From assembly GCF_900168055.1 (NCBI RefSeq), contig NZ_FUYS01000002.1, positions 186,888 to 250,887 of the forward strand: a stretch of DNA of 64,000 bases, in the 5' to 3' direction. The first letter of the stretch is position 1. The number at the start of each line of letters is the position of its first letter. A program made the position numbers and the translations under genes. This document shows positions 28,882 through 34,216 of this stretch, one piece after another. Source of the DNA: Parapedobacter luteus. GTDB taxonomy: Bacteria > Bacteroidota > Bacteroidia > Sphingobacteriales > Sphingobacteriaceae. The notes under the pieces were generated by a model. The model made no database searches and was not told where the DNA came from. It worked only from the letters and a program-made list of their open reading frames with translations.

Positions 28882-28888
28882 CAGGGTA

Positions 28889-29290
28889 GCAAACCTGTTC
28901 TATCGCTCCGGCCGGATGCCGGGGAGGAAAGTCCGGACAACGTAGAGCACCCCGCTTCCTAACGGGAAGGGTTTCGGCGATGGCCGGAATACGGAAAGTG
29001 CCACAGAAAAAAAACCGCCTGTGTTTCGGCATAGGTAAGGGTGAAAACGTGGGGTAAGAGCCCACGGCTTTGCGTGGTGACACGCATCGCGGTAAACCCC
29101 GGGGGTTGAAAGGCCAAATAGGTTGCGGAGATTAGGAGGTTGCTCGCTTCCATCCCTCATGGGAACCGCAACGGGTAGGCCGCTGGAGCTTGCCAGTGAT
29201 GGCAAGCCTAGATAAATGATAGAAGTCCCATGCACCTGCTGTAGCAGGCTATTGGGATACAGAATCCGGCTTACAGGGTTTGCTTTTTTT
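28889..29290 (+). ncRNA. rnpB: RNase P RNA, bacterial class A
   Basis: Catalytic RNA that matures tRNA 5' ends. The universal core GAGGAAAGTCCGGAC is at 28924-28938 and its partner ACAGAATCCGGCTTAC at 29259-29274 (helix P4 region). The helix P1 strands are GCAAACC-TGT (28889-28898) and ACAGGGTTTGC (29273-29283), directly followed by seven T (29284-29290), so P1 doubles as the terminator stem. Length is about 400 bases, normal for class A. Protein frames drawn across this interval on either strand are not genes. Confidence 0.95.
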
Positions 29291-31148: not shown

Positions 31149-32330
31149 CTACGCTATCTCGGCGAGAAAATACCCTTCTCTATCGATAATATCCCGATTT
31201 TTTAGGATATTGCTCAGATTAACTTTTCCTATAATATATTTAAAGTCCTGGGCATAATAGCGCTCGCTGATCGAAGTGAACTTGAGATGTTCAATAAAGC
31301 TCTCCTCTTTGTAACGTAGGTAGACTTCTATTTCCCAATCCGTGCTGTAAGCAAGCCCGTTGGCATCAATGTGTTTTTTGTACTCGTATTTATAACCATA
31401 CCGCAAAGCCGCTATGTCGGATAGTACGGCGGATCCCGTTGGATGGCCGCCGGCGCCTTTGCCATAGAAAAATTGCTCATCGGCGAATGCGGCTTTAACC
31501 AGCACACCGTTGTATTCGTTCTCTACGCCATACAATATGTTGTCGCGAGGAATCAGCTTTGGCAACACATATAAAATGACAGATTTATCATTGATTTCCC
31601 GCGCTGTAGGGACCAATTTGATTTTGAAATTCTTTTCTTTGGCGAATTGGATATCGGATGCGCTAAGCTTGTCTATTCCGATATTCAAAATCGCTTCCGG
31701 GGCGATATAAAGGCCGTAAGCATGCGATGCTACAATAGCCAGCTTAAATTTTGGATCGTACCCACCGACGTCCAATGTAGGATCAGTCTCTGCAAAACCG
31801 AGGTCCTGAGCTTGTTTCAACGCCGTAGCATATGCCAGATTTTCGTTAAATATTTTAGATAAAATATAGTTGGATGAACCATTGAAGATACCCGTCACTG
31901 CATGGAGCAGTTCATTGTCATAGTACTCTTCGAGGTTCCTGATAATGGGAATGCTTCCGCATACCGCCCCTTCATATAGCAAACTTGTGCCATACTCCTG
32001 CTGGATGGCTATCAAATCAGCTAAGTGGGTTGCGATCATTTTTTTATTGGCAGAAACGACGTTTTTCCCCGACCGGAGGGCGCTGGACACGATATCGAAG
32101 GCAGCCTCCGCATCGTCGATAAGCTCTACAACAGTATTGATTTCCGGGTCGTCCAGCACGGCGTTGGCATCGGTGGTAAACAGTTCGGCGGGTAATGTGC
32201 GTTTCTTTTCAGGGTGTTTGATGACGAATCGTTTGATTGCAAGGTTGAGATTTTTGGTTTTGATGATATCGTGCAGCCCTTGCCCCACTACACCAAAACC
32301 GAAAATCCCCAAGGTAAGTTTGTTGTTCAT
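31149..32330 (-). CDS. hom: Homoserine dehydrogenase
   Basis: NAD(P)-dependent enzyme reducing aspartate semialdehyde to homoserine, the branch point to methionine and threonine. 393 aa. The Rossmann motif is GIFGFGVVGQGLHD. SANKKMIATHLADL contains a conserved Lys, and EGAVCGSIPIIRNLEEY with GIFNGSSNYILSKI form the substrate region. GFAETDPTLDVGGYDPKFKLAIVASHAYG is the family signature with the catalytic Lys. The C-terminal ~60 residues do not look like a full ACT domain, so threonine feedback may differ from the long enzymes. It lies 132 bases after metY and probably shares its SAM-I controlled transcript. Confidence 0.93.
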   Translation of the reverse strand: MNNKLTLGIFGFGVVGQGLHDIIKTKNLNLAIKRFVIKHPEKKRTLPAELFTTDANAVLDDPEINTVVELIDDAEAAFDIVSSALRSGKNVVSANKKMIATHLADLIAIQQEYGTSLLYEGAVCGSIPIIRNLEEYYDNELLHAVTGIFNGSSNYILSKIFNENLAYATALKQAQDLGFAETDPTLDVGGYDPKFKLAIVASHAYGLYIAPEAILNIGIDKLSASDIQFAKEKNFKIKLVPTAREINDKSVILYVLPKLIPRDNILYGVENEYNGVLVKAAFADEQFFYGKGAGGHPTGSAVLSDIAALRYGYKYEYKKHIDANGLAYSTDWEIEVYLRYKEESFIEHLKFTSISERYYAQDFKYIIGKVNLSNILKNRDIIDREGYFLAEIA

Positions 32331-32462: not shown

Positions 32463-33779
<1,317 letters not shown>

Positions 33780-33823: not shown

Positions 33824-33868
33824 GGTACACCAGTATCGCTGCGGGCGCTAGCCAGCAACTTGTATACC
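33824..33868 (-). promoter_or_regulatory. Long hairpin between leader ORF and metY
   Basis: In the minus-strand RNA GGUAUAC (33868-33862) pairs with GUGUACC (33830-33824) with one G-U pair, and the stem continues through AAGU/ACU and UUGCUG/CAGCGA-type pairing to an 11-base loop. It begins 17 bases after the leader ORF stop. No U-run follows, so it is not a classic intrinsic terminator. Confidence 0.45.
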
Positions 33869-33884
33869 TATTGCGTGTACGGGA

Positions 33885-34010
33885 TTAGCAGCATGTACAC
33901 ATCGTTCCGCTGCACATTCGGATGGCTTGAATGACGGTAAGGGAGGCGGTCTGATGCCCAGATGTCCAATTGGCTGGATAACGATTGCTGCTTGTTGGAT
34001 ACATGTTCAT
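33885..34010 (-). CDS. Candidate leader peptide, 41 aa, Met/Cys-rich C-terminus
   Basis: Short frame from ATG 34010 (ATGAACATG, second Met two codons later) to TAA at 33885, between the SAM-I aptamer and metY. The peptide begins MNMYPTSSNRYPANW and ends RMCSGTMCTCC before the stop. Four of the last ten residues are Cys and two Met, in a gene set that makes methionine and uses sulfide, so ribosome pausing at scarce Cys-tRNA or Met-tRNA could be sensed. Upstream there is only A-rich sequence (AATAAAAAGACA), common for this phylum. The GTGTAC over the Cys-Thr codons (33900-33895) is complementary to GTACAC just after the stop (33880-33875). Expression is unproven. Confidence 0.45.
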   Translation of the reverse strand: MNMYPTSSNRYPANWTSGHQTASLTVIQAIRMCSGTMCTCC

Positions 34011-34030
34011 TGTCTTTTTATTTATATGCT

Positions 34031-34052
34031 CCCAACAACAATGTTGGTTGGG
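34031..34052 (-). promoter_or_regulatory. Expression-platform hairpin of the SAM-I riboswitch
   Basis: RNA strand CCCAA(C)CAAC - AUU - GUUG UUGGG. It uses the same AACCAA segment as the 3' strand of aptamer helix P1, so it can form only when P1 is open. No U-run follows; the leader ORF starts 20 bases downstream. Confidence 0.55.
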
Positions 34053-34136
34053 ACAGGATTTGGCACCTTTTCCGTCGCTTCAGATGGTTGCCAGTGGGTC
34101 ATTGAGCCAGTCTCTCGCCACTTCTTTATAAACCAA
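34044..34136 (-). ncRNA. SAM-I (S-box) riboswitch aptamer
   Basis: Senses S-adenosylmethionine in the metY leader. Reading the minus strand, P1 is UUGGUU (34136-34131) paired with AACCAA (34049-34044). The S-box core is present in order: AAGAAGUGGCGAGAGACUGG, then CUCAAUGACCCACUGGCAACC, a variable stem, and AAGGUGCCAAAUCCUG. These match the conserved parts of the family (GGGACNGGCCCNNUGAANCC-like, GGCAACC, GGUGCNAANUCC). The next genes, metY and hom, are classical S-box targets. Confidence 0.92.
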
Positions 34137-34161
34137 GACCTTTTGAAGAGGAATTGATTTG

Positions 34162-34177
34162 TGTGTGCATGCACACA
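34162..34177. promoter_or_regulatory. 16-bp perfect palindrome at the metY transcript start
   Basis: TGTGTGCATGCACACA, a perfect palindrome directly after the predicted start (~34178) of the riboswitch transcript. It could be an operator for a dimeric repressor or a 5'-terminal RNA hairpin. Confidence 0.5.
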
Positions 34178-34184
34178 TCGATTG

Positions 34185-34216
34185 CAAATATAGGTTGTGC
34201 GATTTGTATGTGCAAA
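34185..34216 (-). promoter_or_regulatory. Promoter of the SAM-I/metY/hom transcript
   Basis: Minus-strand TTTG (34216-34213), 20-base spacer, TATATTTG (34192-34185): one of the best matches to the Bacteroidota consensus in the window. Confidence 0.65.

Follow-up and report, generated by a model that had tools for sequence, protein, structure and literature searches.

The metY and hom genes of Parapedobacter luteus (family Sphingobacteriaceae, phylum Bacteroidota) lie on the minus strand of the window, the stretch of 64,000 nt that was analysed (assembly GCF_900168055.1, contig NZ_FUYS01000002.1, 186,888-250,887), and all coordinates are positions within it. metY (32463-33767, ATG at 33767) belongs to the O-acetylhomoserine sulfhydrylase family (TIGR01326, 685.6 bits; PF01053), and hom (31149-32330), downstream of it, encodes homoserine dehydrogenase (PRK06349, 315.9 bits; PF00742). 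The window also holds an RNase P RNA gene at 28887-29289 (RF00010, 262.5 bits). The metY leader, on the same minus strand, opens with a predicted Bacteroidota-type promoter at 34216-34185, made up of TTTG (34216-34213), 20 nt and TATATTTG (34192-34185) and called from the sequence against what we take to be the consensus. Among 135 nonredundant metY leaders, 118 have TAnnTTTG in the 120 nt preceding the aptamer, compared with 109 of 1789 control windows. A perfect palindrome, TGTGTGCATGCACACA (34177-34162), with a predicted hairpin of -6.7 kcal/mol, comes directly after the predicted start of the transcript.

A SAM-I (S-box) riboswitch aptamer of 116 nt follows at 34134-34019. The first-pass annotation had recognized an S-box here, and the match to Rfam RF00162 bears it out: it covers the full model (1-108), with conserved core and structure, at 74.2 bits against a gathering score of 44.4. 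In this score and in its place upstream of a methionine gene the element resembles other SAM-I riboswitches. The P. luteus genome carries three SAM-I aptamers in all. It differs from the usual arrangement past P1, where no terminator was found and the next element is a leader ORF of 41 codons (34010-33885; MNMYPTSSNRYPANWTSGHQTASLTVIQAIRMCSGTMCTCC), whose AUG lies 8 nt beyond the aptamer's 3' end. The ORF ends RMCSGTMCTCC-TAA and, as first described, its last ten residues, MCSGTMCTCC, stand directly before the stop; a Cys run right before the stop also defines the poly-Cys attenuators of mycobacteria. The last 12 codons (IRMCSGTMCTCC, 33923-33888) are the proposed stretch for sensing Cys, together with Met. 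From the ORF stop to the start of metY there are 117 nt.

Conservation of the cysteine-rich leader ORF

A peptide search at E up to 1 gave matches, mostly weak, in 86 of 301 genomes, and the match in one genome (G087) fell just downstream of a SAM-I aptamer, which prompted a leader-by-leader comparison. The first set comprised all 85 family aptamers found, from the window genome and 34 family genomes; in it the metY leaders are longer than most other SAM-I leaders and have an ORF at a near-fixed place. The second set was started from metY rather than from the aptamer, to avoid choosing by aptamer. metY was found at the strict threshold in 213 of 251 family genomes, and 90 upstream regions were taken, 30 as returned and 60 picked for genus spread among the matches listed. 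A covariance model built from 30 family aptamers detected the aptamer in 86 of these 90 regions. In 85 of the 86, an ORF of 15 codons or more opens with an ATG 4-15 nt past the aptamer; the sole exception (L214) has its ATG at the aptamer end. The composition set of 183 leaders, drawn also from named genomes and from other families, includes repeated species, and its statistics rest on 135 nonredundant leaders, 104 outside Sphingobacterium and 31 within. The ORF starts 6-10 nt past the aptamer in 90 of the 104. A single leader of the 183 (L374) was scored as lacking the ORF, the model having extended the aptamer 21 nt past where Rfam ends it; its ORF is visible otherwise.

The end of the ORF is set apart by its composition. 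In the 104 relatives outside Sphingobacterium, Cys accounts for 37.7% of the 12-residue tail but for 1.7% of the ORF body, and Met for 13.5% and 1.2%, respectively. A Cys-rich end, taken as at least three Cys within the last 12 residues, is found in 91 of the 104 (77 of 87 in Sphingobacteriaceae and 14 of 17 in other families), against a chance background of 9 of 503 window ORFs and 53 of 3200 ORFs of the collected loci. Counted over the 86 aptamer-bearing family leaders, it is present in 49 of 56 outside Sphingobacterium and 3 of 30 within. Six of the nine leaders from the window's own genus have at least three Cys, two have two and one (L187) has one. The Cys-ending leader is not confined to one genome: as the first-pass annotation had proposed to check, the Cys end is kept while the DNA drifts, in most of Sphingobacteriaceae and in nine other GTDB families. 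Aptamer, ORF, near-fixed spacing and Cys tail are jointly conserved. The reservation that the ORF could be chance is countered by its conservation, frame and composition in relatives, and on these sequence comparisons the leader ORF is not a chance one.

A different explanation is that the Cys-rich end is kept at the RNA level, as a stem such as UGUAUG...CAUACA in Pedobacter, and that the ORF is incidental. A Pedobacter helix does lie over the Cys codons, with 94.2% of cells paired though without two-sided changes. Among the Cys codons shared by close pairs of leaders, 5 of 83 differ synonymously; so few changes make some RNA-level constraint on the tail likely. In the R-M-R/C motif the first R is written CGA in 43 of 45 listed copies. 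The reading frame, however, speaks for the peptide. The densest Cys window lies in the frame of the near-fixed AUG in 86 of 104 leaders and in another frame in 2 (16 are below threshold), across ORFs that vary in length from 23 to 53 codons. Both Cys codons are in use in the tails (TGT 269, TGC 201), and the same Cys tail recurs between genera despite dissimilar DNA, with examples such as CMCMCCCC, CMCCCIQ, ICCCCC and MCCCCMC outside Sphingobacterium. The Cys/Met peptides of metY leaders that have no SAM-I match, described below, sit in quite different RNA contexts. We consider an incidental ORF quite unlikely.

Substitutions over the whole ORF number 101, 84 and 89 at codon positions 3, 1 and 2 (18 pairs). 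So weak a position bias does not point to selection on the body of the peptide, and conservation is limited to the tail and the open frame. The bias is as expected if only the tail matters, and it is no proof of translation. The same body bears on the proposal that the ORF product is itself functional, a thiol or metal-binding micropeptide. Cys clusters can bind metals and the ORF is widely retained, but the body is unconserved between genera, and three of the peptides had no Pfam or NCBIfam match when searched. Moreover, among 122 SAM-I leaders a Cys-rich ORF adjoining the aptamer occurs only upstream of metY or metX, and we regard a working micropeptide as very improbable. When the first ORF was scored, none of the 92 SAM-I leaders not assigned to metY or metX, a group that includes 21 without an assigned gene, had a Cys-rich ORF adjoining the aptamer; one of them (L105) has such an ORF farther off, at +132. 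All seven metX leaders (L098, L101, L103, L111, L125, L132, L143) carry an ORF that begins shortly past the aptamer, and in three of them it has a Cys-rich end.

Sphingobacterium is the clear exception. This genus retains the ORF and its position, but a Cys-rich end is found in only 3 of its 31 nonredundant ORFs; most of its ORFs end R-M-R-stop, written CGA-ATG-CGN-TAG. In the Sphingobacterium leaders L180-L205 and L257-L285, where the Cys run is mostly gone, a stem TAGTCGTC...GACGAC frequently begins at the stop codon.

Beyond the family, a class-wide draw of 237 genomes gave a strict metY match in 46, and 38 of these lie outside Sphingobacteriaceae. SAM-I together with a Cys-rich ORF end was found at 15 of the 38 loci, spanning nine other families. 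At the loci L356, L370 and L372 metY lies 586-720 nt from the aptamer and another gene may intervene. Named genomes with aptamer and Cys ORF include Mucilaginibacter, Pedobacter, Daejeonella, Lewinella cohaerens (ending ACCCCCC) and an Adhaeribacter MAG. Four of the 38 loci have SAM-I without a Cys-rich end (L357, L361, L375, L388), and ten have neither SAM-I nor a Cys-rich ORF, L378 being scored as neither type with a Cys-containing ORF upstream of its metY. The remaining nine have no Rfam SAM-I match yet carry Cys/Met-rich ORFs, with MM in eight; this type was chosen by a Cys/Met density rule, so its Met richness is partly due to selection. Three loci (L375, L376, L380) were classified without the covariance model. 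On the strand opposite to the SAM-I-bearing metY leader of L388, at 372-474, there is a borderline SAM-II match (44.8 bits, gathering score 44).

Folding of the leader and its candidate output

The first-pass annotation saw the logic of attenuation in exclusive pairings around the stop codon. GTGTAC at 33900-33895 and GTACAC at 33880-33875, its proposed shared pairing partner, are indeed present in the sequence, while the third element, GTGTAC, lies at 33830-33825 and not at 33829-33824. The hairpin it placed at 33868-33824, 16 nt past the stop codon, is likewise predicted by folding, at -18.4 kcal/mol. Over 94 leaders from outside Sphingobacterium, pairing with the following 70 nt is no stronger for the Cys-codon stretch (z -0.26) than for a control segment of that ORF (z -0.21). 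Mutually exclusive pairing of the Cys codons with GUACAC/GUGUAC is thus no general rule, which rules out the three-way scheme as a common feature. For 24 Sphingobacterium leaders the stretch at the Cys-codon position gave z -0.53 and the control 0.13. Folds of the whole region leave the Cys-codon stretch paired at about 0.6, against 0.5 in shuffles, and may leave room for another pairing of these codons.

The region between the stop codon and metY folds better than shuffles, with a mean z of -1.76 in the 94 leaders and -1.38 in the 24 of Sphingobacterium. Its mean profile places 5' arms about 8-20 nt and 3' arms about 28-44 nt past the stop, followed by roughly 40 nt that are more open before metY. 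In Pedobacter the post-stop stems have 97.2% of cells paired, and 32 cells are changed on both sides compared with 11.3 in shuffles; pairs with two-sided changes number 4, compared with 4.1. Three helices are kept in this genus, with paired changes in the third and none in the other two. Mucilaginibacter keeps one stem, CACGT/ACGTG, with 89.8% paired and 8 two-sided changes against 2.9 in shuffles. When the post-stop regions were simply aligned genus by genus, the consensus energy was close to zero for all of the six genera except Pedobacter, where it reached -11.9. The window leader taken as a whole folds no better than its shuffles (z 0.11).

A terminator downstream of P1 is a common, though not universal, expression platform of SAM-I riboswitches, and the scan of the window leader turned up nothing resembling a terminator. 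Of the attenuation logic first proposed, the short ORF with its Cys run therefore stands as a conserved element, while classical attenuation of the termination type is unsupported. Strong terminators were found in 12 of 138 metY leaders labelled as belonging to the family, one of which is Lewinella, or 11 of 137 without it; an intrinsic terminator as the output of Sphingobacteriaceae metY leaders is likewise unsupported. The same scan of metH leaders found strong terminators in 9 of 11 from other families and 0 of 24 from Sphingobacteriaceae, which suggests that intrinsic terminators may not, as a rule, serve SAM-I control in this family. With a looser scan, sites were scored in 81 of 146 metY leaders where shuffling gave a mean of 42, and in 12 of 35 against 7 for the metH set; a weak terminator-like excess exists in metY leaders, as it does in the metH set.

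Two outputs of the leader can be envisaged, premature termination of the transcript and blocked initiation at metY. The tract from the leader stop to metY is poor in G (12.0%, with C at 21.3%), a composition that would suit Rho. Since an intrinsic terminator is lacking, the tract is G-poor and the metY start is unstructured, premature, possibly Rho-dependent, termination appears somewhat more probable than a block on initiation.

metY leaders without a SAM-I match

Six metY leaders without a SAM-I match (L364, L366, L369, L379, L385, L386) contain one or two Cys/Met-rich ORFs and strong terminators. The first four have two successive ORFs, with runs such as MMMCCM, CCCMM and MMCCCC, and then strong terminators. 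In the first attenuators of L364 (GCTGAAGGG with CCCTTCAGC), L366 and L369 and in both attenuators of L379, the terminator's 5' arm is complementary to a part of the ORF that either coincides with the codon run or follows it. The fit is weaker for the second ORFs of L364 and L366 and for L385 and L386, and the second ORF of L369 departs from the layout, pairing past its stop with the 3' arm of the terminator. Mutually exclusive antiterminators and terminators are seen in L364, L366, L369 and L379, and not in leaders of the window type.

The arrangement of these leaders is the usual one in which stalling frees an antiterminator, which suggests that in them metY is switched on when Cys or Met runs short. 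In the opposite sense, plentiful Cys-tRNA would let the ribosome reach the stop with metY staying on, and stalling would turn metY off; metY would be on at high Cys because high Cys means that sulfide is available for homocysteine. MetY uses sulfide, and the SAM-I leaders have no terminator that would fix the direction. Stalling on the Cys/Met run in the terminator/antiterminator layouts just described would, however, favour the antiterminator. The TIGR01326 model is named O-acetylhomoserine aminocarboxypropyltransferase/cysteine synthase, moreover, so low Cys could sensibly call for MetY. We judge the opposite sense to be unlikely.

A putative two-input leader and its known counterparts

The reading that we favour, with a probability of roughly two in three, is that the metY-hom mRNA opens with a composite two-input leader, in which SAM would gate the translation of a leader peptide whose Cys codons would sense Cys-tRNA. 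The aptamer would sense SAM. In most leaders 6-10 nt separate its end from the AUG. At this spacing a P1 stem stabilized by SAM would reach into the ribosome landing site, hinder initiation at the ORF and shut leader translation. Ribosomes of Bacteroidota mostly ignore Shine-Dalgarno signals. At low SAM the leader ORF would be translated, and scarcity of Cys-tRNA, perhaps also of Met-tRNA, would make the ribosome pause on the Cys run, as its composition and conservation suggest. The paused ribosome would cover the stop codon and reach up to the following hairpins, and the candidate output is a change in the continuation of the transcript or in the translation of metY. The most probable sense is that low SAM combined with low Cys would give the highest metY expression.

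A broader proposal is more tentative, and we think it somewhat more apt to fail than to hold. The expression platform of the SAM-I aptamer would be the start of the leader peptide, which would make the leader a serial gate. Dual control of metY in Bacteroidota would then come in two interchangeable forms, one with a SAM aptamer and Cys codons, the other with leader peptides, often in tandem, whose Met codons replace the aptamer.

To our knowledge, control by leader peptides has been little charted in Bacteroidota. The poly-Cys ORFs of mycobacteria are reportedly termed leaderless in the title of a 2020 study by Canestrari et al. The window ORF differs from such ORFs in lying about 175 nt past the predicted promoter, behind the 116-nt aptamer, with a transcript start that is itself a prediction. 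Actinobacterial cys operons have leader peptides with a Cys run near the stop and no conserved terminator hairpin, for which Rho was suggested in the account of Seliverstov et al. (2005, PMC1262725). The leader described here resembles them in its small ORF, its Cys run near the stop, its place upstream of sulfur genes and the absence of a conserved terminator; it differs in preceding metY in Bacteroidota, directly downstream of a SAM-I aptamer. The uORFC-8-2 attenuator of cysS in Rhodobacterales (PMC8632094) also has tandem Cys codons in a uORF, where they lie inside a stem. It is alpha-proteobacterial, however, and has an intrinsic terminator; the part of that source describing it mentions no riboswitch.

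Combinations of two sensors are known as well. Tandem SAM-I/T box-Met leaders join a SAM sensor to a sensor of tRNA charging and appear under NOT A AND B logic in the relevant entry of PMC9481103; relative to that entry, the proposed second sensor of the window leader would be a ribosome on Cys codons, responding to Cys rather than Met tRNA. The B12 riboswitches of Mycobacterium tuberculosis metE and ppe2 interact with uORF translation, according to the passages of PMC11260477 on these genes. Riboswitch and uORF occur together there too, but the aptamer is another one, the uORFs lie within the metE aptamer or overlap the ppe2 start, and a run of amino-acid codons is not described in those passages. 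Attenuation by leader peptides is mentioned in general terms, in the relevant passages, for a Flavobacterium and for Bacteroides (PMC9723704, PMC7366714). Among the matches listed from the open-access literature, a scope that left subscription journals mostly outside, no report joins a SAM-I switch to a Cys leader peptide in Bacteroidota. Each sensor type alone is known, as are other pairs of riboswitch and uORF or of SAM-I and T box; what appears to be new is the widely distributed union of a SAM-I aptamer with a putative Cys-codon leader ORF before metY in Bacteroidota.

If the serial gate is real, SAM would decide whether the cell may measure cysteine at all, through two RNA sensors placed in series on one mRNA. 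Such a leader would be a natural example of a riboswitch controlling a second sensor, and, by reading first SAM and then charged Cys-tRNA, it would reveal how methionine and cysteine are balanced against each other in these bacteria.
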